A DNA stretch of 64,000 nt from Acidobacteria bacterium RIFCSPLOWO2_12_FULL_66_21 (GCA_001767455.1 MELC01000080.1:20860-84859), one strand, 5' to 3'; shown: positions 32,048 through 47,018, numbered from the stretch's first letter. The notes: a model not told the origin generated them from the sequence alone. A program made the numbers and translations.

Positions 32048-33700
32048 ATGCAGACGCTCCTCATTCCGTGGTGGCATCGCCTCAGCGTCAAGCTCGCGGC
32101 CGCCATTGCGCTCGTCAGCGTGATCACGCTGAGCCTGTTCCTGTTCCTGGTGCTCGGGAGCCAGCAGCGTCACCTGATGGTCCAGGCGCGGCGCAGCGCG
32201 GCGGTTGTGAACGACATGATCACCAGCAGCATCGAGCGCGACATGCTGCTGGATCGCCGCGAAGAGGCGTACCAGATCATGGGGCGCATCGGCCAGCAGG
32301 ATCAGATCGATCGGCTGCGCCTGTTCGATGCCACCGGGCGAATCCGGTTTTCGAAAGACTCCGCCGAGACGGGACTCGTTCCTGACATCAAGGCCGAAGC
32401 GTGCTCGCCGTGTCACGGTTCGGGCAAGTCGAAGCTGCCGCTCTCGGTCGTCGATCGCACGCACGTCTCGACGCGCAACGGCCGGCACATCCTGGGCGCG
32501 ATCACGCCGATCTACAACCAGCCGTCCTGCTCGACCGCGGCCTGCCACGTCCACCCGGCCTCGCAGCGCGTGGTCGGGGTCGTCGAGCTCGGACTGCGGC
32601 TGGATTCGATCGACCAGGAGAGCGTCACGCTGCGCAGAACGACGATGGGGCTGACGCTGCTGGCGACGCTGATGGTGGCGTCGCTGACCTTCGCCTTGAC
32701 GCGGCGCCTCGTGGTCCGGCCGGTGCGCTACCTCGTCGCCGGTACGAACCGGGTGAGCGTCGGCAAGCTCGACGTCCGGGTGCCGATCAGCGGGACGGGC
32801 GAGCTCGCGGTGCTCGAGTCCTCGTTCAACGAAATGTCGCGGGGGCTCGCCGCGGCGCGCGCGGAGCGCGACGAGCTGCTGCAGGGCCTCGAGCGTCAGG
32901 TGCGCGAGCGCACCGAAGCGCTCGAGCGCGCGCAGGCGCAGTTGATCCAGACCGAGAAGCTGTCGTCGCTCGGCAAGCTGTCCGCCTCCATCGCGCATGA
33001 GATCAACAACCCGCTCGCCGGGATCCTCACGACGTCGAAGCTGCTGATCCGGACGGTCGGCGAGGATCCGCGGGATCCGAAGTCCGCCTCGATCGTCCGG
33101 CTGCTGAAGCTCGTGCAGCGTGAGACCGAACGGTGCACGGCGATCGTCCGCAACCTGCTCGGCTTCGCGCGGGAGCGCGCGCTGACGCTCACCGACGCCG
33201 ACGTCAACGCCGCGCTCGACGAGGCCCTGTTCCTGATCGCCAACCAGATCGCGCTGCTCAACGTCACGCTCGAGCGCGACCTGGCGCCGCTGCCGCCCGT
33301 GCGCGCCGACTTCGGTCAGCTCCGGCAGGCCTTCGCGAACATCCTGATCAACGCGTGCGACGCGATGCCGCGCGGGGGAGTCCTGCGCGTGCGCTCACGG
33401 CTCGTCGAGGCGGAACGGTCCATCGTGCTCGAGATTGCCGACACCGGCGTCGGCATCCCGAAGGAACAGCTGTCGAAGGTGCTCGATCCGTTCTTCACCA
33501 CCAAGGAGAAGGGCACGGGGCTGGGATTGTCGGTCGTCTACGGGGTCATTCAGCGGCACGGCGGCCGGCTGACGCTCGACAGCACCCCCGGAGTCGGCAC
33601 GACGGTGACCATCCGCCTGCCGCTGTCGGCCGCGCCCGCCTCGCGCGCGGCGGCCATCGAAGGGCCGGCGGCGCAGGGTGTGGCGCGTGGAGCGCCCTGA
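32048..33700 (+). CDS. Sensor histidine kinase with c-type heme motifs in the periplasmic domain
   Basis: From ATG 32048 a 550-residue kinase: membrane helix at 13-35, periplasmic domain to about 200 with CSPCH (119-123) and CSTAACH (161-167, CX4CH), second helix 200-217, HAMP domain, coiled coil, H-box SIAHEINNPLAG (His near 316), and an ATPase domain with NILINACDAM, DTGVGIP and GTGLGLS. The heme motifs suggest redox or gas sensing outside the membrane. The frame is open upstream to 31781 inside the LysE gene, which is not the real start. It overlaps the protease gene and shares an operon with an NtrC-type regulator. Confidence 0.88.
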   Translation: MQTLLIPWWHRLSVKLAAAIALVSVITLSLFLFLVLGSQQRHLMVQARRSAAVVNDMITSSIERDMLLDRREEAYQIMGRIGQQDQIDRLRLFDATGRIRFSKDSAETGLVPDIKAEACSPCHGSGKSKLPLSVVDRTHVSTRNGRHILGAITPIYNQPSCSTAACHVHPASQRVVGVVELGLRLDSIDQESVTLRRTTMGLTLLATLMVASLTFALTRRLVVRPVRYLVAGTNRVSVGKLDVRVPISGTGELAVLESSFNEMSRGLAAARAERDELLQGLERQVRERTEALERAQAQLIQTEKLSSLGKLSASIAHEINNPLAGILTTSKLLIRTVGEDPRDPKSASIVRLLKLVQRETERCTAIVRNLLGFARERALTLTDADVNAALDEALFLIANQIALLNVTLERDLAPLPPVRADFGQLRQAFANILINACDAMPRGGVLRVRSRLVEAERSIVLEIADTGVGIPKEQLSKVLDPFFTTKEKGTGLGLSVVYGVIQRHGGRLTLDSTPGVGTTVTIRLPLSAAPASRAAAIEGPAAQGVARGAP

Positions 33701-34272
33701 CGGCCAGGCGCGGCTGCCCGGGCCGATCGCCCTGTGGTGGATCGGCGAGGCGGCCGTCGACGGAGACGTGGTGAAGACCGTGGCCGAGCGCGTCGCGCGC
33801 GAGTTCGCGCGCGAGGTGGCCGTGCAGACGCCGATCGAGCGGCCCGCCGGCACGCTCGACGCGAAGCGGCGGCAGCACTCGTCGCGCGAGATGTTGAAGT
33901 GGCTGGTCGCGCACGCTCCGGCGGACGCGTCGCGGGTGCTGGGGCTGACCGACGTCGACCTGTTCATCCCGGTGCTGACCTTCGTCTTCGGCGAGGCACA
34001 GCTCGAGGGGGTGGCCGCGGTGGTTTCGGCGGCCCGGCTCGCCGCCCCGGCCGATCGGCGGCTGACCGCGGCGCGGCTGGCGCGCGAGGCGGTACACGAG
34101 CTGGGACACACGTTCGGACTGGTGCACTGCGACGCGCTCGAAGACGAAGACGGCCGCGCGGCGCCGTGCGTGATGGCGCGCTCGCCCAGCGTCCGCGCCG
34201 TCGACGCAAAGAGCGCGCGTCTCTGCCCGGGATGCCGGGCCAGGTATGTCACGTTTCAGCAGGATGGATCCC

Positions 34273-35634
<1,362 letters not shown>

Positions 35635-35643
35635 CGCGGCACC

Positions 35644-36174
35644 CTACCGCGACGGGGGCTGTTTCTCTAGTGAGACGACGGCGCCGCCCGCGACACTGAC
35701 AAGCTCGATGTCGCGCAGCATGCCCGGAATCTCAAGGGCACGACGCTCGAGCTCGTCGGCGAACGTCTCGCACCAGGCGAAGTCCCGCGCTGCGGCCACG
35801 GTGATGTGAGGCGCGAACGGGATGTCCCCGCGAAAATGGCGCTTGAACACACCCTCGTAGAGTCGATCGTGCAGCCACGCGATCTCGCGCGAGCCCTCTT
35901 CGGGCACGAGAAAGACGTGGCCTCTTCTGTGGAAGACATCGCGAACCGCCCTCGCAGCCCGAATGACGAACGGAATTGGACGGACGGAACCGGCGACGGC
36001 CGCAATCTCCTCCGCTACGCGATCGGACGCGACCTCCGCGGGAAACACGAGCGTGAAGTGAGCGGCGAGTCTGGCCGCCTGCGGGTCGCGCGTGGCGCGG
36101 ATCGACTCAATCCAGTCTCGATCGGCCGCCCTGAGCGCCGGGTACGAAATAACGGCGAGCCGTGGCATCGTCAA
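35644..36174 (-). CDS. 2'-5' RNA ligase / 2H phosphoesterase family protein
   Basis: A 176-residue cytosolic protein with the two HxT/S motifs of the 2H family, HFTLVFP (near residue 39) and HITVAA (near 124). Members hydrolyse or form 2',5' or cyclic phosphodiester bonds in RNA or nucleotides; the physiological substrate is unknown. ATG 36174 or 36168. Stop lies 9 nt from the convergent regulator gene stop. Confidence 0.8.
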   Translation of the reverse strand: MTMPRLAVISYPALRAADRDWIESIRATRDPQAARLAAHFTLVFPAEVASDRVAEEIAAVAGSVRPIPFVIRAARAVRDVFHRRGHVFLVPEEGSREIAWLHDRLYEGVFKRHFRGDIPFAPHITVAAARDFAWCETFADELERRALEIPGMLRDIELVSVAGGAVVSLEKQPPSR

Positions 36175-36205
36175 TCCCGCGGTTCGACGAGAACCAAGAG
36201 CGGAA

Positions 36206-37045
36206 TCATCGGTGTCGGAACTTCTGATACAGGTCCGGACACATTCCGCAGCTCTGCTGGGACCGCGTCAGATTCAGCACGTCGGCCTGGGACATGCCGG
36301 TCCGTGCGGTGCACTGGGCCGTTCCATAGTGATCGTAGTTTCCTTCGGTCCCAAACGGGTGCATGAACTCGTGCACGATGCTGCAGCCGGTGAAGTAGTC
36401 CGGATCCGCATACAGATCGTGCAGCGCATCCGGGCACATCCAGTACCGGCCGTTGTCCACGCAGGCGAGCCCCGACCGGTTCCGGCACTCGCCGCCAAAC
36501 GATGTGTCGCTGACGCGGTTGCCCGCGTCGTCGTAGCCGCAGCGCGCGTACTTGTGAAAAAAATCCACGACCGCCAGATAGACTTTTCCCGCGCCCAGGA
36601 CTGGTGAAGGAACGCGATTCTGGCTCGGCGGAGGCAGGCTGAACGTCTGAGAGTACCCGCCGTAGCTGGTGGCGGTTTCGTCGTCGGACAGCGCGATGAT
36701 CCCGTCGGGTGGGGCGCTCGCGTGGGCGCTTACGTACCCCATTCCCTGCTCCAGAGCGGAACCTGGGCCGACGTTGACGACATCGGTCTGGGTCATGCGT
36801 TCGCCAGTCTTCTGCAGCAGGATGCCATTCGCCCGCGCAAACACCCGCGTGACGTCTTCAGTGGCCGGCGCGCGCGACGCGCTGAGCAGCACGGCCACCC
36901 TGAACAGGGCATCCTCGCCTCCGCCTGGTGTGGGGTTGGTCGAAGGGCCGCTCGATGGACTTGTCGGCGCCGCGCCGCCGCAGCCAGCAATCATGGCCGC
37001 AACCATCACGACGCAGATCGCAGATAAGACCTGACGCATGATCAT
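36206..37045 (-). CDS. Lipoprotein with a zincin-type metalloprotease motif
   Basis: A 279-residue lipoprotein (IAGCGG, Cys22) with a Pro/Ser-rich linker and a body containing SIVHEFMHPFGTEGNYDH, an HExxH motif with a later Asp-His as in gluzincin/metzincin-type peptidases. About ten cysteines suggest disulfides. I cannot place it in a named peptidase family. Its ATG overlaps the TGA of a 79-residue upstream frame (ATGA), which supports 37045 as the start and coupling of the two. Confidence 0.65.
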   Translation of the reverse strand: MIMRQVLSAICVVMVAAMIAGCGGAAPTSPSSGPSTNPTPGGGEDALFRVAVLLSASRAPATEDVTRVFARANGILLQKTGERMTQTDVVNVGPGSALEQGMGYVSAHASAPPDGIIALSDDETATSYGGYSQTFSLPPPSQNRVPSPVLGAGKVYLAVVDFFHKYARCGYDDAGNRVSDTSFGGECRNRSGLACVDNGRYWMCPDALHDLYADPDYFTGCSIVHEFMHPFGTEGNYDHYGTAQCTARTGMSQADVLNLTRSQQSCGMCPDLYQKFRHR

Positions 37046-37281
37046 CCGCGCCAGCGCTGCGAGCTCCGGCCGACGGCACGCACATCGCGCTGCGGGTCCG
37101 GTTCTTCGACGGCGACGGCCGAATCGCGGCCGCCAGGCCGGCTGCGGCGCGGCTCGCGCACCCCGCAGTCAGGATCATCGAGCGGACCCGAGGCGGGAGG
37201 CTGCCAACGGCGGAGCCGCACGGCCAGTGGAGGCTGGGAACGGCGGAGCCGCGCGGCCAGTTCTTTGAGCCACTCGAACAT
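37042..37281 (-). CDS. Small hypothetical protein coupled to the zincin lipoprotein
   Basis: A 79-codon frame with a strong ribosome binding site (GGAAGGAGG 6 nt before ATG) reading MFEWLKELAARLRRSQPPL, very rich in Arg and Pro, with an internal 32-bp duplication (LRRSQPPLAVRLRRWQPP). Its stop overlaps the next start by ATGA. Low complexity makes coding uncertain, but the translation signals are good. No function can be given. Confidence 0.45.
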   Translation of the reverse strand: MFEWLKELAARLRRSQPPLAVRLRRWQPPASGPLDDPDCGVREPRRSRPGGRDSAVAVEEPDPQRDVRAVGRSSQRWRG

Positions 37282-37324
37282 CGATCCTCCTTCCACTCTC
37301 AGTGGGCCGGCACGCGCGCCATCG

Positions 37325-37846
37325 TCAGCCGGGAACCTCGTACTCGCTCTGCACGAGCCCGCTGGCGTACTGCCGGGTGGCGATGTGCTTGAGACGCACA
37401 TCGTGGTCAAGCGGACCAAACAAGGGAATGCCGCTGCCGATCAGCACGGGCACGCGCGTAATGATGAGGCGCTGAATCACGCCCGCCCGGAGAAACCGCT
37501 GAATCGTGATCCCGCCGTCGACGTAAACGTGCCCGACGCCGCGCGCGCCGAGCTGCGACGCGATATCAACTGGATCGCCTGACATGCGCTCCACGATGGC
37601 CCCGGGCGGCGGCGTGGCAAGCGGCCGCGTGCTGAGTACGAAGACGGGTTTCCGATCGTAGGGCCAGGCGTCGAAGGCCAGCACCGTCTCGTACGTGTGG
37701 CGGCCGATGACGAGCGCATCGACGGTGGCCATGAACTCGTCGTAGCCGTGCGGCTCGCCGCCACCCGGCGGCAGAAAGTCGAGGCCGCCGCTCGCGCGGG
37801 CGATGAAGCCGTCGACGCTGGTGCCAATAAAAACGGATGCCTTCAT
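37325..37846 (-). CDS. Dihydrofolate reductase-like (RibD C-terminal) family protein
   Basis: A 173-residue protein with SVFIGTSVDGFIA at the N-terminus, a VDALVIGRHTYETVL block and VYVDGGITIQRFLRAG, matching the YyaP/YwjB branch of RibD C-terminal/DHFR-fold reductases. These bind NADPH, but the substrate is usually unknown and they are not canonical folate enzymes. Single gene; the small membrane protein upstream on the same strand ends 47 nt before. Confidence 0.85.
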   Translation of the reverse strand: MKASVFIGTSVDGFIARASGGLDFLPPGGGEPHGYDEFMATVDALVIGRHTYETVLAFDAWPYDRKPVFVLSTRPLATPPPGAIVERMSGDPVDIASQLGARGVGHVYVDGGITIQRFLRAGVIQRLIITRVPVLIGSGIPLFGPLDHDVRLKHIATRQYASGLVQSEYEVPG

Positions 37847-37893
37847 TCCCGGGCCCTCCCACCTGTCCTGCAGGACTGAGTGACTCTGCCCGA

Positions 37894-38064
37894 TCAGGAT
37901 CCGAACGCGTACATCAAGTACACCAGTCCCGCCACGATGCCCAGACCCACAGCCCCTTCAGGCAAGCGGTCGTTCCGGGTGCCGCCGCGATACCTGCCAA
38001 GTGTCACCAGCCGCAGTGCGGCATACCCGATCCAGCGAATGAGCTCCTCGACGACGTCCTGCAC
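37894..38064 (-). CDS. Small membrane protein of unknown function
   Basis: A 56-residue frame with GTG start reads VQDVVEELIRWIGYAALRLV, then a basic turn (GRYRGGTRNDRLPEG) and a second hydrophobic segment AVGLGIVAGLVYLMYAFG. Two amphipathic or membrane segments around a positively charged loop argue for a real inner-membrane peptide. GGGAGG lies about 12 nt upstream. It would be missed by a search limited to ATG starts or longer ORFs. Upstream, 38065-38320 holds nothing I recognise beyond a possible leader. Confidence 0.55.
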   Translation of the reverse strand: MQDVVEELIRWIGYAALRLVTLGRYRGGTRNDRLPEGAVGLGIVAGLVYLMYAFGS

Positions 38065-38320
38065 GGCTGCGTCTGTCCTCCCTGTCGGACGTGCGATGCC
38101 TTCAATTGTGGACGCTGTTTTCCACCCGATGCGGGAACCCGCAGCCCTTCAGCCTAATATCACCGGTCTCCCGTCGAACCGAATGGCCGCACGGGTTGCC
38201 GGTCGACACAACCGGCGTGCGCGACAAGTCGGCGATGCGTTCCCCGAGACAACACCCGCCGCGGGGCACTTCAGGGTGGTGCGGTCGCGGACCGGTCAAC
38301 GCGCGAACGGCGCTGCTCAT

Positions 38321-39356
38321 TCATCGTTGCTGCTCTTTCAGAATACTCGCGTCGGCTGCGCCGAACCACAACTTCGCCTCGTGTCGGTTGTGGGCGGCGC
38401 CGGAGCTGGAGGTTATCGACCGTCGCCTCGCCACCATCAGCAAACGGGATCAGATGGTGCACCTCCAGAAAACCACGTTCCGTGCATCGGCCGTGGGTGC
38501 CGACAAACGCACAGCGGCCCTCGTCGCGTTTCCAGACGACGCGTTTGACTTCGGCGGGAATGTGCCGCGAACCGGACGTGACTGGGAGACGTTGGTGCCG
38601 CGGATGGATGGTTGCGGCGAGCCTCTTCTTCTCGAGATCTTCGACGAGTAATGCGAGCGCGCGCTCGAAGATCACCGCGAGGCTGCCATTCGGGACGCCG
38701 TGGCGCATCAGATCCTGAGCGCGCCGGAGATTATCGTGCCCCTCACGCGATAACGTGAACTGCACTTTGAACAGCTCTGGCGCCAGGGGCTGCACGATCG
38801 CCCGTCGCTCGGTCGCTGAATCAGCCGAGGCAGGGGCTGGTGCGGGCGATCGCGTCGCAGACGCTTCCGACGTCACGTCCGGCGCGATTGAAATCACGGG
38901 CCGCTCTACGGGCGCAGGCATCTTCCGCAGCGTTTCCGGCGCGGGCGCCTGCGGGCGCACTCGCGCGACCAGTTGCTCGACCTCGCGTTTGCTCCTGTGA
39001 CATGCGGACTCGAGCAGTTCCGCGGAATTGTCTTCCGTCAGCACCGGCGCGAGCAGGCTGACCGACGTCAGCGTCAAGGAGCCATCGATCAGGCGCTCGA
39101 GGATACGGGGATGGTGCCGCGCGGTTCGAGCCGCCGTGATGCGCGCGGAAGCGGCGCTTTCCGATAGACGCAGCACTTGCGTGCAGTAGGTAAACAGTGA
39201 CGAGCAGCCCGCGCCAAGGTACAGCCGACGCGCGTCCAGTTCCGCCAGGGACACGATCGGTTCGGCCGTCGCGGATCGCTCGCTGGCCGCAAGAACACCG
39301 ACGCGTGCGACCAGATCAGCATCGGACAGGTACCTGAAGTCTCTTGTTATCGCCAT
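38321..39356 (-). pseudogene. HNH endonuclease gene frameshifted inside the HNH domain
   Basis: From ATG 39356 the frame encodes a DUF222-like N-terminal region (LDARRLYLGAGCSSLFTYC) and an HNH domain start (CAFVGTHGRCTERGFLEVHH). Just after VDNLQL, near 38395, the reading frame shifts: the expected ending HNRHEAKLWFGAADASILKE is encoded in another frame and stops at 38321. One base gained or two lost explains it. In the undisrupted frame the protein runs on with unrelated residues to 38271. Such HNH proteins are abundant in Acidobacteriota and Actinobacteria, often in multiple copies. Confidence 0.75.
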
Positions 39357-39371
39357 GCCCCTTTGTAACAT

Positions 39372-39749
39372 CGTCGTTTTCGCGGCACGACGGTGGACGA
39401 CGGCGCGTGGTCGATCGCGAGGGGATGATTTGTGTCGGAGATGGTCGAAAAGTCGTTCAGGCGGCGCTGCAGGCGTGGCTGTCGGCACGTGTGGATTGGA
39501 CGTCAGTCGCTGATTGTTGTCGCTGTGAGAACCTGTCAAGTACTTTCTTGTACTTTCTTGCGCGCGCAAAAAGATTCTTGTGAACTCCGTCCGGACGGAG
39601 CTCGATGACCAACAGCGCCACGATGTCGACACGTCCGAATTCCGTCTGCCCTGGCGTCGCGCCACCTTGTGGCGAGCTGCTGGAAGCGCGACAATGAGGT
39701 CGGCGGCTGTTCGACGAGGCAAACTTCTGTGAGTGCACGCAACGCGTTG
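39372..39749. other. Stretch without recognised genes
   Basis: About 380 bp between the HNH remnant and the endonuclease/phosphatase gene. Reading frames here are short and lack motifs; it contains a small direct repeat TACTTTCTTG (twice, 39540-39559). Probably decayed DNA. Confidence 0.5.
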
Positions 39750-40592
39750 TCACGGCCACTCGAAGTCAGCCCAGACGGGTAGATGATCGGACGCGTGGTC
39801 ACCGAGAGAGTTGATGGCCTTCCACCCAAGTAGCTCGGCAAGGGAACGGCTCGGGGCCGTTCGGCTTGCGTCGAGTGATTTTATCGCTTCAAGCGTACTG
39901 GAGGACCGGAGAGCCGGCTGAAGATCCCGCGACGCGAACACGTAGTCGATCCGCGCGCTGGGATCCCACGCGGGCACCGTGAATCCCTCCTTTTCCGCGT
40001 TGCACGCCCGATAGCAATCGACGTACCCGGCGTCGGTGAGCCGCTTCAACGCCCAGCGCGGGGTCCGTCCGCCCTGGAGCAGCGACTGAGCCCGGACCCA
40101 CACAGGTGCACCCTCCCGGCGCTGCAGGTCCCGACCAATCAGCGCATTGAAGTCGCCCGCGACGATGTGCGCGGCAACAGTGGGAGCTGACAGCCGTTTC
40201 AGCAGAAAGCGGACTTCCCAACGCCGCCACAACTCAAACGGCCAGAGCGGTTGTGGCACGAGGTGAACACCGTGAACGGTGAGTGGCGAGCCGCCAAAAG
40301 GTTCCAGCGTCGCCTCAACCCACTTCCGAGTTGCCCACGGCGGCCCGTGTAGAGCCGATTGCACAATCGGCCAGCGGCTCACGATCACCGGATACTCACG
40401 CGCATGCCGCCCTTCCCGGCCGGCGCGGTAGGGGCCAACCGCCTCCGCAATGCACTCGAACGAATCGGCGTCGGTCACCTCGGTGAAGATGCCGATGTCG
40501 GGACGAACGGCATTCACGACGTCACGGATCAATTGTTCCCGTCCAACACCTCCGTAGAGGATGTTGTAGGTCATGACGCGGAGTGTTGGCAT
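39750..40592 (-). CDS. Endonuclease/exonuclease/phosphatase family protein
   Basis: A 280-residue protein with the EEP motif order: RVMTYNILYGG at the start, IGIFTEVTDAD, HIVAGDFNALIG (catalytic Asp-Asn) near residue 145, RIDYVFASRDL near 215 and GDHASDHLPV at the end. No signal peptide is seen, so it should act in the cytoplasm on DNA, phospholipid headgroups or sugar phosphates. Single gene between two decayed neighbours. Confidence 0.87.
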   Translation of the reverse strand: MPTLRVMTYNILYGGVGREQLIRDVVNAVRPDIGIFTEVTDADSFECIAEAVGPYRAGREGRHAREYPVIVSRWPIVQSALHGPPWATRKWVEATLEPFGGSPLTVHGVHLVPQPLWPFELWRRWEVRFLLKRLSAPTVAAHIVAGDFNALIGRDLQRREGAPVWVRAQSLLQGGRTPRWALKRLTDAGYVDCYRACNAEKEGFTVPAWDPSARIDYVFASRDLQPALRSSSTLEAIKSLDASRTAPSRSLAELLGWKAINSLGDHASDHLPVWADFEWP

Positions 40593-40605
40593 TGGGATCG
40601 GCCGT

Positions 40606-40816
40606 CTTACGTCCCCAGTCGGGGCTCGTGTGCTTGCGTCCGCGGAGGAGGCCCATGCGCGTCACGGCCGCCGTCGCCGCGCAGATGGCCGCGATCGGCA
40701 CCTCTTGCGCATCGAGACGGCGCAGCAGCGCCTCGATCCCGTGCTCGGCCGGCGCCGCCTCCCATCGATCGCCACCAGGAACAATCAGTACGCGACGTCC
40801 GCGGGATCGACCGTAG
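40606..40816 (-). pseudogene. Fragment of a DJ-1/PfpI (glutamine amidotransferase-like) gene
   Basis: The minus strand encodes GRRVLIVPGGDRWEAAP followed by VPIAAICAATAAVTRMGLL and GRKHTSPD, the central part of a DJ-1/PfpI protein including the nucleophile-elbow cysteine (AAICAAT). N-terminal strands and the C-terminal part are missing and there is no start codon in place, so this is a remnant between two intact genes. Confidence 0.65.
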
Positions 40817-40825
40817 GGTGAAGAC

Positions 40826-41287
40826 TCACGCGCGCGTCGCGAGATGGGCGCAAATCCATTCCTGCCAGCGATTCATCTTCTCCGCATAGGCGTCAACGGT
40901 CATGGCCGCGATCTCGCCGTTCCCCTCACGCGTCAGCCCGACAAAGGCGTACGCGGTGGTCACCTTCGTGCTGGCGTCGCCGGACGCGATGCACCTCACG
41001 CGCACGCGCGCGACGTATCGATCCGGTTCGACCCGGTGATACTCGACCTGGTGGGCGTCGCGATCGAGGCGGGTGACAATCCAGATCGCATCTCCCGTCT
41101 CCTCGCGCGTGCGGAACACTTGCCCCGGCTGCCAGAGGACACCTGGCGGATGGAGCAGCTCAGGATCCCACCCGGGAACCCACGCACGCTCGCCGAGCGG
41201 CGAGAATAGTTCGAAGACGGCCTCGATAGGCGCGGGAATCGAAAGCGTCCCCGTAAGCTCACGCGCCTCTGCGATGAATGCCTTCAC
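40826..41287 (-). CDS. SRPBCC (START-like) domain protein
   Basis: A 153-residue protein with the polyketide-cyclase/START-like pattern: LTGTLSIPAPIEAVFELFSP, GWDPELLHPPG, and a final helix (DAYAEKMNRWQEWICAHL). Such proteins bind hydrophobic ligands in a helix-grip pocket; function unknown. Single gene. Confidence 0.75.
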   Translation of the reverse strand: MKAFIAEARELTGTLSIPAPIEAVFELFSPLGERAWVPGWDPELLHPPGVLWQPGQVFRTREETGDAIWIVTRLDRDAHQVEYHRVEPDRYVARVRVRCIASGDASTKVTTAYAFVGLTREGNGEIAAMTVDAYAEKMNRWQEWICAHLATRA

Positions 41288-42306: not shown

Positions 42307-42432
42307 GGCGCTCTTCACCGCGTGTGACGCGTGATCGGTCTGATCGCGCTAACTCCTCTCTCGACAACAGGTTCTCGTCACTGGTGTCGCGCGCGTGCGC
42401 ATGGCGCGGCCGTTGCCGTACACGGAAGCGAG

Positions 42433-42529: not shown

Positions 42530-42757
42530 ATGGCATGCCCGTACCTCAAAGAAGTCGTGATGCTCTTCTGCGACGCCTATCCCGTCAAAAAGATGCTGCC
42601 GCTGGATCGGATCGTCTCCGCGAATCCGTGCCTCGGTGAGTTTCACGGCTGCCCGCTGTTCCAGGACATCCTGACTCGAGTCGCCGCCGCGGGCGCCGCC
42701 GCAGCCGTGCCTTCCGCACACGCCGCCGCGCTCGTCCACAAGGAGGGATCGCGATGA
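42530..42757 (+). CDS. Small four-cysteine protein, first gene of the redox operon
   Basis: A 75-residue protein beginning MACPYLKEVVMLFCDAYPVK with cysteines at 3, 14, 34 and 41 (NPCLGEFHGCPLF), a spacing that could hold a metal or iron-sulfur centre, followed by an Ala-rich tail. No signal peptide or membrane helix. The ATG at 42530 is chosen because the cysteine region starts there; the longer frame from 42395 runs through an inverted repeat. Its stop overlaps the next small gene by ATGA. I know no named function; context suggests an accessory or subunit of the HybA/HybB-like complex. Confidence 0.7.
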   Translation: MACPYLKEVVMLFCDAYPVKKMLPLDRIVSANPCLGEFHGCPLFQDILTRVAAAGAAAAVPSAHAAALVHKEGSR

Positions 42758-42843
42758 TCCTCTTGCTTCCACTCTCGCTCGCTGGTGTCGTCGTGATGGC
42801 CATCAGCCTGGCGCTCGCACACCGCCATAGCCCAGCTCGGTGA
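42754..42843 (+). CDS. 29-residue membrane peptide in the redox operon
   Basis: ATG 42754 overlaps the previous stop (ATGA) and has a strong AAGGAGG 7 nt upstream. The peptide, MILLLPLSLAGVVVMAISLA followed by LAHRHSPAR, is one membrane helix with a basic end. Size and position recall the tiny subunits of respiratory complexes (CydX-like), so a stabilising role for the NrfD-like protein is plausible but unproven. Confidence 0.65.
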   Translation: MILLLPLSLAGVVVMAISLALAHRHSPAR

Positions 42844-42853
42844 GGACACCGTC

Positions 42854-43762
42854 ATGAAGCTCACTCGCCGCACGTTCTTCAAAGTGAACGCCATAGGGGC
42901 CGTCACGCTGGCCGCCGGGGCATCAGCGACATCGGCCGCGACGGCTGCGGCCAGCACCGACACCGTCGGCGTGCTCGTCGATACCACCCGGTGCGTCGGC
43001 TGCCGCGCCTGCGAGGCGGCCTGCGCGGAAGCCAACGGGTTGCCGGAGCCGGACCAGTCCGGCGACGTGCCGGGCGCGGCGCCGCGCCAGACCTCCGAGA
43101 AGCAGTGGACCGCAGTCCGTCGTTACGACACGCGCCACGGCGAGGTCTTCGTCAAGACGCAGTGCATGCACTGCGTCCAGCCGGCATGCGTTGCCGGCTG
43201 TCTGACCAGAGCGCTCGAAAGGCAAGACAACGGCGCGGTGACCTGGAACGGTGACAGGTGCATGGGCTGCCGCTTCTGCATGATCGCCTGTCCGTTCGAC
43301 GTGCCGAAGTTCGAGTACCAGAGCTGGAATCCGAGAATCCAGAAATGCCGGCTCTGCGTGGATCGACTGCGAGAGGGGGAGTCACCGGCCTGCGTAGAGG
43401 TCTGCCCGGCCGAGGCGCTGACATTCGGCAAGCGCAGCGCGCTCCTCGAGCTCGCCCGGCAGCGGATCTACCAGAATCCCGGCGCCTACGTGCCGCACGT
43501 TTACGGCGAGGACGAAGTCGGCGGGACCGGCTGGCTGTACATCTCGCGCGTGCCCTTTGAGGAGCTGGGATTCCGCATGGACCTCGGTACGACAGCCGTC
43601 CCGGAAACGACGCGCGACTTTCTGACCGCGGTGCCCCTCGTGCTTGTCGCGGGGCCGGCGATGCTGCTGGCGTTGCGTCGCGCCAGCGCCGAGAAGGAGC
43701 GAGCGGAGCTCCCGGTGGCGGGAGGAGCGCGAAGGCGCTTTCCGGTTGGAGAGGAGATCTGA
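42854..43762 (+). CDS. HybA/DmsB-like ferredoxin subunit with Tat signal
   Basis: A 302-residue protein with a Tat motif (TRRTFFK, residues 4-10), then four cysteine clusters for [4Fe-4S] centres: CVGCRACEAAC near 47, CMHCVQPACVAGC near 105, CMGCRFCMIAC near 136, and CRLC with CVEVC near 165-185. A membrane helix near 257-275 anchors the C-terminus. It should pass electrons on the outer face of the membrane between a partner and the NrfD-like quinone site encoded 1 nt downstream. No catalytic hydrogenase or molybdopterin subunit is in the operon. Confidence 0.88.
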   Translation: MKLTRRTFFKVNAIGAVTLAAGASATSAATAAASTDTVGVLVDTTRCVGCRACEAACAEANGLPEPDQSGDVPGAAPRQTSEKQWTAVRRYDTRHGEVFVKTQCMHCVQPACVAGCLTRALERQDNGAVTWNGDRCMGCRFCMIACPFDVPKFEYQSWNPRIQKCRLCVDRLREGESPACVEVCPAEALTFGKRSALLELARQRIYQNPGAYVPHVYGEDEVGGTGWLYISRVPFEELGFRMDLGTTAVPETTRDFLTAVPLVLVAGPAMLLALRRASAEKERAELPVAGGARRRFPVGEEI

Positions 43763-43763
43763 C

Positions 43764-45026
43764 ATGGATGCCAGACCATCCGCGCAGACGCCGCCGGTGA
43801 CACAGAGCAAGTGGGCGTTTCTCCGCGGTGAACTTCGGCCAAAGGGCAAGGTGCTCACCGCGTTCAATGTACTCACGATCCCGATTCTGGTGGCGGCAGC
43901 CGTCATCCTCTACTTCCGTTTCACGCGGGGGCTGGGCGCGGTGACGAACCTGGACCAGAACTTTCCCTGGGGGCTGTGGATTGGACTCGACGTAATGACC
44001 GGCGTCGCTTTCGCTGGCGGCGCGTACGTCTTGTGCTTTCTCGTCTACGTGCTTCGGTTGGAGCAGTACCACCCGATTGTCCGCGTGACGGTCCTCAACG
44101 GATTCCTGTCCTACGTCTTCTATGCCGGCGCCCTGCTGCTCGATCTAGGACGGCCGTGGCACGTCGTGAACCCGATCATCGGCAACTCGTTCGGCCTGAC
44201 GGCCGTGCTGTTTCTGGTCGCCTGGCATTTCATGCTCTACATGTTGGCCGAGCTGGTCGAGTTCTCGCCGGCGATCGCCGAGTGGCTCGACTTGCGCCGC
44301 GTTCATCGGATGCTGAGCAGCCTGACCGTCGGCGCGGTGGTCTTGGGCATCACCCTCTCGACACTGCACCAGTCGGCGTTGGGTGCGCTGTTCCTCGTCG
44401 CCGAGAACAAGATTCACCCCCTCTGGTATTCGGAGCTCATTCCGGTCCTGTTCTTCGTCTCGAGCATCTTCGCCGGGCTGGCGATGGTGATCTTCGAAGG
44501 GAGCATCTCGCATCGCGTCTTCTACGATCGCGTCGGCCCCGCGCTGCGGGCGCGGCACGACGAGATCGTCTTCGGGCTTGCGCGGATCGCTGGCGGCGCG
44601 ATGTTCGTGTACCTGTTCCTCCAGCTCCTCGCCTTCGTCCACGGCCAGAACTGGGTGCACCTCACTGGCCGATGGGGCGCGTGGTACGTGTTCGAAATCG
44701 TCGGACTGGTCGCGGTTCCAATGATGATGCTGCTCGTCGGCCACAAGCATCGCAATATGACGCTCGTTCGCGTCGCGTCGCTCGTGACGATGCTCGGCGT
44801 CGTTGTCAATCGCCTGAATGTCTCGATCATCGCGTTCAAGTGGTACGCGCCGCGGCACTACGTCCCGAGCTGGATGGAGGTTGTCGTCACGGCGGCGGTG
44901 ATCTCGGCCGAACTGTGGGTCTTCCGCTGGATCGTCCGGCGCATGCCGGTGCTCGGGTTCGAGCCTGCCTGGGCGAAGCCCGCGGGGCGTGAAGCGGCAG
45001 ACGAGATGGTGGCGCGCACGATGTAG
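43764..45026 (+). CDS. NrfD/HybB-family polytopic membrane protein
   Basis: From ATG 43764 a 420-residue protein with about ten membrane helices and the conserved start of HybB/NrfD proteins (NFPWGLWIGLDVMTGVAFAGGAY). It should exchange electrons with the quinone pool as the membrane partner of the HybA-like ferredoxin. The open frame continues upstream inside the ferredoxin gene to 43644, but the ATG at 43764 follows GAGGAG and is only 1 nt after the ferredoxin stop. Confidence 0.9.
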   Translation: MDARPSAQTPPVTQSKWAFLRGELRPKGKVLTAFNVLTIPILVAAAVILYFRFTRGLGAVTNLDQNFPWGLWIGLDVMTGVAFAGGAYVLCFLVYVLRLEQYHPIVRVTVLNGFLSYVFYAGALLLDLGRPWHVVNPIIGNSFGLTAVLFLVAWHFMLYMLAELVEFSPAIAEWLDLRRVHRMLSSLTVGAVVLGITLSTLHQSALGALFLVAENKIHPLWYSELIPVLFFVSSIFAGLAMVIFEGSISHRVFYDRVGPALRARHDEIVFGLARIAGGAMFVYLFLQLLAFVHGQNWVHLTGRWGAWYVFEIVGLVAVPMMMLLVGHKHRNMTLVRVASLVTMLGVVVNRLNVSIIAFKWYAPRHYVPSWMEVVVTAAVISAELWVFRWIVRRMPVLGFEPAWAKPAGREAADEMVARTM

Positions 45027-45064
45027 TGTCCCGCCTCCGACATCCCTGGCGCATCGACGCCGCT

Positions 45065-45092
45065 GAGGCGAGGCGCGAGGAGCGAAGAGCGA
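45065..45092 (+). repeat. Four 7-bp repeats (GAGGCGA type) before the lipoyl-protein gene
   Basis: GAGGCGA, GGCGCGA, GGAGCGA, AGAGCGA, running into AAAAGGGGG, which is the ribosome binding site of the H-like gene at 45105. Confidence 0.7.
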
Positions 45093-45104
45093 AAAGGGGG
45101 TTCC

Positions 45105-45896
45105 GTGGACTTCCTGCCAAGCAAAGGCATCGAGTATCTGCTGGTGATCGGCTATCTGGCGCTGCTCATCCCGTTCTGGAGGCTGTTTCTGCGCGGCGAG
45201 CGGGCGCCGGCAATGGCCCGCCTCGCCGCGCGGCTCCCGCGGCTCGACATGTTCCAGATACCGGACGGCGTGATGTTCCATCTCGGCCACGCCTGGGCGC
45301 GCGCCGACGGGCCGGATCTCGTGACGATCGGCATGGACGATTTCGCACAGCAGCTCGTCGGACCCCTCGCCGGAATCGTCACGCCCGATGTGGGGAGCCG
45401 CGTGGAACAGGGTGCGCCCGTCGCCACCCTGCGCGCCGACTCCAAGAGCGTGGACCTGCTCTCCCCGATCTCGGGTCACGTGGCCGCGGTGAACGACGAT
45501 GCGAAAGGGACGCCGCGCGCGATCAACGACGACCCCTACGGGCGCGGGTGGTTGATCAAGGTGCGGACGCCGCGGTGGCCGCTCGACAGCAAGCAACTAC
45601 TGCACGGCTCGCTGGCGCGCCGCTGGATGTCATCGTCCTGGGACGAGCTGTCCACGATGCTGACGCCGGAACTCGGCACGATCATGCACGACGGCGGCAC
45701 GCCGATTCATGGCCTCGCGCGCGGCATCGACGAAGCGCACTGGGACGAGATCGCCCGGCGCTTCCTGCTCACCGATGCTCCCGACGTGATGACTGGAACG
45801 CCCGACCTGAAGGTCGGGCCTACTGGACCGGCCGACCTGAAGGTCGGGCCTGCTGGAACGCCCGACGTGACCGGGCCTGCGGGGTCGGAGGCGTAA
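45105..45896 (+). CDS. Membrane-anchored glycine-cleavage H-like (lipoyl) protein
   Basis: A 263-residue protein with an N-terminal membrane helix (residues 10-28) and a lipoyl domain of the GcvH type: HAWARADGPDLVTIGMDDFA, then DSKSVDLLSPISGHV with Lys114 at the lipoylation position, and DPYGRGWLIKV. No glycine-cleavage P or T gene is nearby. In the redox operon it may act as a swinging dithiol carrier at the membrane. The last 30 residues contain a 10-residue repeat (DLKVGP units) encoded by palindromic repeat DNA. GTG start, AAGGGGG upstream. Confidence 0.85.
   Translation: MDFLPSKGIEYLLVIGYLALLIPFWRLFLRGERAPAMARLAARLPRLDMFQIPDGVMFHLGHAWARADGPDLVTIGMDDFAQQLVGPLAGIVTPDVGSRVEQGAPVATLRADSKSVDLLSPISGHVAAVNDDAKGTPRAINDDPYGRGWLIKVRTPRWPLDSKQLLHGSLARRWMSSSWDELSTMLTPELGTIMHDGGTPIHGLARGIDEAHWDEIARRFLLTDAPDVMTGTPDLKVGPTGPADLKVGPAGTPDVTGPAGSEA
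45795..45880 (+). repeat. Three ~30-bp CCTGAAGG-core palindromic units inside a coding tail
   Basis: Units at 45795-45824, 45825-45854 and a shorter 45855-45880. The first two contain CCCGACCTGAAGGTCGGG (45801-45818) and CCGACCTGAAGGTCGG (45832-45847). They are read in frame as ten-residue repeats at the C-terminus of the lipoyl protein. Confidence 0.88.
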
Positions 45897-46262
45897 ATGG
45901 AGACCACGATGAACAGGCACAAGGCCGTGTGGTGCAGGGTTGCCGTGGCGGCGCTCGTCGGCGTCTGGGGGCTCAGCGTCACGGCCGCGTCGCTGCCGCG
46001 CCTGCCAGGTCCGCTGGCGATGCCGCAGTCGGCCGACAGCCCGGGGCCTGTCACGTTCAACCACGTGAGCCACGTCGACGAGGCGAAGCCCACGTGCACG
46101 ACATGCCATCCGCGCGAGTTCAGGATCCTGAAGGCGAACGCCGGCAAGCGGCCCATCCGCCATGCGGACATGGAGAAGGGACGCCAGTGCGGCGCCTGTC
46201 ACGACGGCAAGAAGTCGTTTGCGATGACCGACGACTGCGCGCTTTGCCACAAAACAAGTTGA
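45897..46262 (+). CDS. Periplasmic triheme c7-type cytochrome
   Basis: A 121-residue protein with a signal peptide (about residues 1-32) and three heme-binding motifs CTTCH (67-71), CGACH (98-102) and CALCH (114-118), plus extra histidines (FNHVSH) for bis-His ligation, as in small c7/PpcA-like cytochromes. It should carry electrons in the periplasm to or from the HybA/NrfD-like complex. ATG follows the previous stop directly with GGAGG 6 nt upstream; ATG 45909 is an alternative. Confidence 0.88.
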   Translation: METTMNRHKAVWCRVAVAALVGVWGLSVTAASLPRLPGPLAMPQSADSPGPVTFNHVSHVDEAKPTCTTCHPREFRILKANAGKRPIRHADMEKGRQCGACHDGKKSFAMTDDCALCHKTS

Positions 46263-46273
46263 CGCTTGCCGTT

Positions 46274-46300
46274 GCTCGCAGCTCGCAGTTCGCAGTCCGG
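46274..46300 (+). repeat. 7-bp repeats GCTCGCA, inverted relative to those at 42153
   Basis: GCTCGCA, GCTCGCA, GTTCGCA, GTCCGGA starting 11 nt after the cytochrome stop. Reverse complement of the 42153-42187 unit. Confidence 0.8.
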
Positions 46301-46316
46301 ATAACGGAGAACGATC

Positions 46317-47018
46317 ATGTTGGACTCTCTCATTCAGTGGCTTTCCACACCGCTCCTGTTCGTCGCCGGTCTCGTCGTGCGGGCGCTGGTGGCGATCCTG
46401 ATACTCGCGGTCATCGTGATTCCGCTGGCCGGACTGATTGCCGGGTGGACGTGGCTGATGCGGGGCGTCGACCGGGCGGCCGGTCTTCACACAGTGGGGC
46501 ACGTCCGCTGGCGCCGCGGCTGCTACTACACGCCCGGACATCTCTGGCTGCGGCCGCGCGCCGGGGCGGTTCGCATCGGGCTGGACGACGTGGCGCAGCG
46601 CGTGCTGCCGGAGATCGCGGAGGTGGCGCTGGCGGTTGAAGGGACGACGGTCCACCGGGGGGATGCGCTCGGCCGGATCCGGTGCGCGGACGGGACCGTG
46701 GTGCTGCGCGCGCCCGTCGCGGGGGTTGTCGCGGGGATCAACCACCGGCTCGAGAAGACGCCGGCGCTGCTGCACCGCGACCCGTATCGGCGCGCGTGGC
46801 TGGTCGACGTGCGTCCCAAGGACGTGGACTACACGACGCTGCCCTCTGACGACCGCGCGCGTGAGTGGATCGCCAGCGAAGATCGGCGCCTCACCGAATT
46901 TCTCGAGCACCAGCTCGGCGTCGCGGCGGCCGACGGCGGCGAATTGACGGTTCCGCCGCATCGCCTGCTCACGCCCGCGCAGTGGGACGCGGTCAGGGCG
47001 GGATTCCTGGGGGGATAG
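46317..47018 (+). CDS. Second membrane-anchored H-like protein, lipoylation lysine absent
   Basis: A 233-residue protein with one or two N-terminal membrane helices (residues 12-45) and a GcvH-like domain: YYTPGHLWLRPRAGAVRIGL, then RCADGTVVLRAPVAGVVAGI and DPYRRAWLVDV. The position of the lipoyl lysine is occupied by CADGTV, so it cannot carry the cofactor in the usual way. It probably arose by duplication from the lipoyl protein three genes upstream and may be a structural or docking subunit. Ends the redox operon; the stop is followed by a repeat hairpin. Confidence 0.82.
   Translation: MLDSLIQWLSTPLLFVAGLVVRALVAILILAVIVIPLAGLIAGWTWLMRGVDRAAGLHTVGHVRWRRGCYYTPGHLWLRPRAGAVRIGLDDVAQRVLPEIAEVALAVEGTTVHRGDALGRIRCADGTVVLRAPVAGVVAGINHRLEKTPALLHRDPYRRAWLVDVRPKDVDYTTLPSDDRAREWIASEDRRLTEFLEHQLGVAAADGGELTVPPHRLLTPAQWDAVRAGFLGG

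Follow-up and report, generated by a model that had tools for sequence, protein, structure and literature searches.

Positions 42530–47018 of a 64,000 nucleotide stretch of DNA from Acidobacteria bacterium RIFCSPLOWO2_12_FULL_66_21 (the whole stretch is termed the window) carry an operon that probably encodes a self-regulated, quinone-linked periplasmic electron-transfer complex. The complex would be a variant of Hmc and Nhc in which H-fold domains that are not lipoylated serve in docking, assembly or signal relay. Its control would be by a linked heme kinase, and an archaemetzincin would be an accessory protein.

The operon

The operon consists of seven open reading frames on the + strand with intergenic gaps of −4, 10, 1, 78, 0 and 54 bases. 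The seven closely spaced genes read in the preliminary description, with their coordinates and short gaps, are thus all borne out. The genes are as follows.

42530–42757, + strand: four-cysteine (Cys4) protein, CPxLKEVVMLYCDA...PC...CPLY; six neighborhood homologues, and a fusion in locus L099
42754–42843, + strand: 29-residue peptide with a single transmembrane (TM) segment; 4-base overlap with the Cys4 stop codon; equivalents in six relatives
42854–43762, + strand: HmcB/NhcB/HybA-like, Tat-exported 4x[4Fe-4S] protein with a C-terminal TM tail (NF045715, HybA, 16 Cys)
43764–45026, + strand: HmcC/NhcC/HybB-like quinone-reactive membrane subunit of the NrfD family (PF03916, NF045714)
45105–45896, + strand: H1, an HmcD-like TM anchor with a GcvH-like domain and a C-terminal helical extension (PF01597, AF2 model)
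45897–46262, + strand: exported triheme cytochrome of the c7 type (TIGR04257, PF14522, three CxxCH)
46317–47018, + strand: H2, a second membrane-anchored GcvH-like protein (PF01597; TM 23–41)

Neither the Cys4 protein nor the 29-residue peptide has a match in any family library searched. The Cys4 protein is found at the same position in six related genomes, and in L099 it is fused to the N-terminus of a GcvH-like protein. A short hydrophobic open reading frame begins at or beside the Cys4 stop codon in 7/7 genomes, the window included. The possibility that the 29-residue open reading frame is spurious was rejected because all six Cys4-bearing relatives have an equivalent.

The triheme cytochrome scores 75.6 bits with TIGR04257 (cut-off 40) and 5e-15 with PF14522, and displays three CxxCH motifs. 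The window contig (C80) shows no match to PF00374, the NiFe large subunit, which agrees with the earlier reading that a hydrogenase subunit is not part of the operon.

Conservation of the gene neighborhood

A scan with the NrfD protein, in which loci were picked regardless of H-like genes, gave 80 loci in other genomes; together with loci from related genomes there are 95 loci with an HmcC homologue. The sample consists of the nearest relatives of a single protein, most of them from metagenome bins. Homologues of the operon genes stand together in about 90 loci, thus their grouping is beyond chance. A GcvH-like gene is close by in all 48 loci whose flanks reach 6.5 kb or more on each side. In 42 of these 48, genes for a histidine kinase, a sigma-54 response regulator and an archaemetzincin of family M54 are all present as well, within an allowed distance of 9 kb (for the window, 14 kb). 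Carriers were found among Bacteroidota, Calditrichota, Chlorobiota, Gemmatimonadota, Planctomycetota, Neomarinimicrobiota, Nitrospirota and other groups; a cultivated one is Maribellus luteus XSD2 (L089). The view that the genes form one conserved unit therefore stands: the genes recur as a group in different phyla, and the H-like ones are located away from glycine-cleavage genes.

Among loci flanked on each side by more than 5.2 kb, a heme kinase or archaemetzincin is present in 49 of the 52 that have an H domain and in none of the three that lack it. Although the negatives are few, this suggests a place for the H domain in the signalling part of the system and not in the electron-transfer core. 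Loci with HmcBC that have no H domain at all do exist (L113, L098, L076, L106 and L107), thus the domain appears dispensable for the electron-transfer core. L106 and L107, from Krumholzibacteria, display two facing copies of HmcBC with 13-heme cytochromes.

The FeS protein and the NrfD-type subunit

Profile searches with the FeS protein show a Fer4_11 match and E-values of 5.8e-98 for HmcB (NF045715) and 8.9e-72 for HybA. The sequence has 16 Cys and a Tat motif, and its C-terminal tail forms a TM segment at positions 256–274. The NrfD-type subunit matches PF03916 and, with an E-value of 7.7e-114, HmcC (NF045714). These scores are strong, yet they fall below the NCBIfam equivalog cut-offs (327.8 of 420 bits for HmcB and 380.9 of 550 bits for HmcC). 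Thus, judged by sequence, the two proteins are clear homologues of HmcB and HmcC that are outside the Desulfovibrio equivalog subfamily.

Alignment of the NrfD-type subunit with HybB shows that HybB residues D58, D109, R89, Y99, E148 and H184 are conserved, while S105, S129 and E133 are not. The equivalents of D58, R89, Y99, E148 and H184 in the window protein are D76, R107, Y117, E166 and H202. Mutations at these same five HybB positions impair the E. coli protein (PMC8076601, PMC13059093). Cytochromes with 3 to 21 hemes are encoded nearby in 29 of the 95 loci with an HmcC homologue.

The H-like proteins

Both H proteins score over the cut-off with PF01597 (GCV_H), with E-values of 4.8e-22 for H1 and 5.4e-17 for H2. 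In the AF2 model of H1 a membrane helix precedes the GcvH fold and a helical extension follows it at the C-terminus, and in Foldseek searches the model matches GcvH structures with a target-normalised TM score of about 0.9. The H1 anchor occupies the HmcD position, after HmcC. Its similarity to HmcD (NF045712) is weak, with E = 0.0068, and that of the corresponding anchor in L034 is 3.5e-4, both under the cut-off. An HmcD-like anchor alone, without an H domain, is found in several loci.

At the position of the canonical lipoyl lysine, H1 has Ser and H2 has Asp (aligned to 3ift and 1onl for H2). A one-residue slip of the alignment was considered as the cause and rejected, as the hairpin aligns ungapped with GcvH sequences from the PDB. 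Most of the associated H-like proteins have Gly here, and the canonical Lys is gone in nearly all. The ESVK-type lipoylation motif is present in 0 of 190 associated H-like proteins, versus 22 of 22 true GcvH controls, which include the GcvH of the window's own genome. H1 has a Lys directly after the canonical position. This +1 residue in the HmcD-type set is Lys in 47 and Arg in 7 of 64 proteins, and His or other residues also occur. In mutants of lipoyl domains, a lysine shifted by one residue is not known to be lipoylated. Lipoylation of H1 is unlikely from its sequence.

Residue charges around the TM helix show the H-domain side to be the more positive one in 53 proteins versus 3, and in 41 versus 2. 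The H domains are accordingly predicted to be cytoplasmic, on the opposite face of the membrane from the exported HmcB-like protein and c7 cytochrome. The genes were initially read as lipoyl H-proteins, and of this the GcvH fold and the membrane anchor hold while the lipoyl lysine does not. The further proposal, that a membrane-bound lipoyl dithiol feeds or drains electrons through the FeS and heme centers, fails because the lysine is missing and because the H domains would lie across the membrane from the carriers; lipoyl electron transfer was rejected on these two grounds.

The true gcvH of this genome is on another contig (C81), beside a gcvT homologue. Homologues of GCV_T are found on C81, C30 and C41, and none is on the window contig.

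In L090 (7399–9102) and other Bacteroidota, the upstream H-like protein has an additional periplasmic part fused to it, a domain of some 300 residues with a signal peptide. This domain is weakly PBP-like (E = 0.03, in L042). Two other loci (L142 and L143) have an anchored H-like gene without HmcBC, located a few kb from a gene that reads as a putative 2-oxoacid:ferredoxin oxidoreductase subunit.

The linked kinase, archaemetzincin and regulator

Three further genes are found 6.9 kb upstream of the operon in the window, at 32048–35634, and a predicted promoter element is located shortly before the first operon gene.

32048–33700, + strand: c-heme sensor histidine kinase (Pfam HATPase_c, HisKA and HAMP; heme motifs; AF2 model)
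33678–34307, + strand: M54 archaemetzincin with HELGHTFGLVH...C...CVM...CPGC intact, start codon uncertain (PF07998)
34273–35634, + strand: NtrC-type sigma-54-dependent response regulator with receiver, GAFTGA AAA+ and Fis HTH (Response_reg, Sigma54_activat, HTH_8)
42402–42417, + strand: sigma-54 (−24/−12)-like site TGGCGCGGCCGTTGCC, upstream of the operon, predicted from sequence

The preliminary description had missed the three genes at 32–35.6 kb. In the close relatives L135, L136, L137, L139 and L141 the kinase, regulator and archaemetzincin genes adjoin the operon. In the window they are split from it by unrelated minus-strand genes at 35644–41287 (2′-5′ RNA ligase-like, RibD_C, HNH, exo/endonuclease/phosphatase and SRPBCC-like).

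The kinase has a TM segment, a periplasmic Cache-fold domain with CSPCH and CSTAACH motifs, a second TM segment, HAMP, HisKA and HATPase. CxxCH together with Cx4CH is present in 67 of 71 kinase homologues. The AF2 model has a pLDDT of 90, and its structural matches are to Cache folds, including GSU0935. PF21563 is matched by 19 of 36 kinase homologues and weakly by the window kinase, which shows no Pfam match to PF11845 (DUF3365) at E 0.01. Cache domains with c-heme display NO-sensor properties when fused to signalling modules (preprint, PMC12889525). The sensors of the sCache_heme/GSU0935 type described there share the Cache fold and the CxxCH motif with the window kinase. The window kinase differs in its extra Cx4CH heme motif and in not matching DUF3365.

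The archaemetzincin scores 55 bits with PF07998 (cut-off 24.4). It matches the HExxHxxGxxHC...CxM...CxxC motif with a longer Cys spacer, and the full motif is kept in 54 of 58 homologues. For intact bacterial archaemetzincins the biological role is little known (PMC3427221). The gene is absent from all bacterial control genomes. In 199 genomes from the window's phylum it is found at 69 places, 25 of them within 15 kb of an HmcC homologue.

Sigma-54-like sites precede 20 of 86 homologous operons, versus 2.8 expected from the same loci. They are rare in Bacteroidota (2 of 30 loci).

Mosaic history of the locus

In a quick tree the window regulator groups with the regulators of the relatives' loci (99% support). 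HmcC of the window groups instead with L138, L108 and L047 (96% support) and not with the HmcC of those same relatives. Pairwise identities give a similar picture: the kinase, regulator, protease, c7 and H2 have their nearest counterparts in the relatives, whereas HmcB and HmcC do not. From these comparisons the core pair, HmcB and HmcC (HmcC at 43764–45026), seems to have been replaced in place.

Comparison with known systems

Nhc of Desulfovibrio desulfuricans (NhcABCD) has an NrfD-type subunit, a 4x[4Fe-4S] protein, a small D subunit and a periplasmic multiheme cytochrome, and it has no HmcE or HmcF (PMC8076601, PMC4215793). The window likewise has B- and C-type subunits, likely a D-type one, and a periplasmic multiheme cytochrome, again without HmcE or HmcF. 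However NhcA has nine hemes where the window has a triheme c7 (other loci have other cytochromes). The window also adds the GcvH-like domain on the D-like anchor, the extra H-like protein, the heme kinase, the sigma-54 regulator and the archaemetzincin.

The likeness to Hmc of Desulfovibrio vulgaris (HmcABCDEF) is in the homologous B and C subunits followed by a likely D-type anchor, in the same order. Unlike the window, Hmc has a 16-heme HmcA, HmcE and HmcF, and its regulators Rrf1 and Rrf2 differ from those found here. Homologues of HmcE (NarI-like) and HmcF (CCG-type) are missing from the window contig and have matches on other contigs only. A full Hmc complex or a hydrogenase was therefore rejected, as neither HmcE, HmcF nor a NiFe homologue is on the window contig. 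Elsewhere in the genome, at G000:C5:86477-88617, NarI-like and CCG-domain genes are near each other and may be an HmcE/HmcF-like or Dsr/Hdr-like unit. A second HmcC-like gene at G000:C58:66704-67915 appears to be in two adjoining pieces, perhaps a frameshift or a pseudogene.

Modules of a Tat-exported, tail-anchored ferredoxin, a HybB-like quinol oxidase and cytochromes have been described as having no conserved flanking genes (PMC10924467). The window has the same ferredoxin-NrfD pair and periplasmic cytochrome, but here conserved genes flank it, those for the H-like proteins, the kinase, the regulator and the protease. HybA and HybB of E. coli hydrogenase 2 share their subunit types and the HybB proton-path residues with the window, and the hydrogenase subunit is not shared. 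With GcvH the window H proteins have the fold in common; they differ in having no lipoyl lysine and no gcvP or gcvT neighbors, in their TM anchor and, for H1, in the C-terminal extension.

Hmc, Nhc and pairs of tail-anchored ferredoxin and HybB-like protein with cytochromes are thus already known. A search of the open-access literature found no paper that connects NrfD and GcvH, nor any that connects archaemetzincin and histidine kinases. As a unit, the gene set is apparently undescribed in the literature searched.

Proposed function

The NrfD-type subunit would exchange electrons with the quinone pool. In the periplasm, the four-cluster HmcB-like protein may link it with the exported triheme c7, with electrons flowing in one direction or the other. 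On the cytoplasmic side, the HmcD-like anchor would bear its GcvH-fold domain, which has no lipoyl lysine, with the second such protein alongside. Rather than being electron carriers, these domains may be a cytoplasmic part for docking, assembly or signal relay in what we infer to be a physical complex. Expression of the operon would be under the linked periplasmic c-heme Cache kinase and the sigma-54 response regulator, a pair that probably reports the periplasmic redox state or nitric oxide. The cytoplasmic archaemetzincin may be an accessory protease that has the complex or the regulator as its substrate. Computation bears out the subunit identities, the shared neighborhood, the lost lipoyl site, the kept NrfD residues, the heme motifs and fold of the sensor, and the sigma-54-like sites. 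Weighing against this reading are the HmcB, HmcC and HmcD scores under the cut-offs, the rarity of the sigma-54-like site in Bacteroidota, the 6.9 kb with unrelated genes between the regulatory genes and the operon, the HmcBC loci that have no H domain, and the Lys that often follows the canonical position.

A different emphasis is conceivable but rather doubtful, namely that the complex is mainly a sensor. Its HmcBCD-type core would then signal the redox state of quinone or cytochrome to the heme kinase by way of the H-fold domains, and the archaemetzincin would cleave a component in response. The co-occurrence of the H domain with the kinase, regulator and protease (49/52 versus 0/3) and its absence from HmcBC loci without them would suit a sensor, as would its predicted cytoplasmic location, its lack of a cofactor site and the weakly PBP-like periplasmic domain fused to it in Bacteroidota. 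However the negative loci number only three, and the intact proton-path residues together with the cytochromes of 3 to 21 hemes (29/95 loci) favor a real throughput of electrons. An improbable reading is that of a plain Hmc or Nhc complex, in which the H-like proteins merely assist assembly in a passive way, while the kinase, regulator and archaemetzincin are neighbors by chance. The 6.9 kb between the two gene sets in the window and the different histories of HmcBC and the regulator speak for it; against it, the three genes recur beside HmcBC in many phyla, and the archaemetzincin, found in no bacterial control genome, has 25 of its 69 copies in the phylum at most 15 kb from HmcC.

That a lipoylated H protein trades electrons with the FeS and heme centers, as was first proposed, is hardly credible. 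The fold is truly that of GcvH and the +1 residue is often Lys or Arg, but the canonical Lys is lost in nearly all of the proteins, the ESVK motif is found in none of the 190, Arg, His or others are frequent at +1, and the H domain is predicted to be across the membrane from the carriers. The self-regulated electron-transfer complex is the reading preferred here.

Significance

The genes constitute a conserved set, found in many phyla, in which a respiratory core of the Hmc/Nhc type is accompanied by repurposed H-protein domains and a dedicated heme-sensing sigma-54 system. Bacterial archaemetzincins with intact motifs gain a testable setting from this association. Annotations of "glycine cleavage H protein" beside NrfD genes probably denote non-lipoylated structural or signalling domains. 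A bolder and quite tentative idea is that of a widespread redox-signalling complex, in which the degenerate, non-lipoylated H domain is a cytoplasmic relay between the oxidoreductase, the heme kinase and a regulatory archaemetzincin. If true, this would provide a function for bacterial archaemetzincins with intact sites and for GcvH-like domains outside of lipoyl chemistry.
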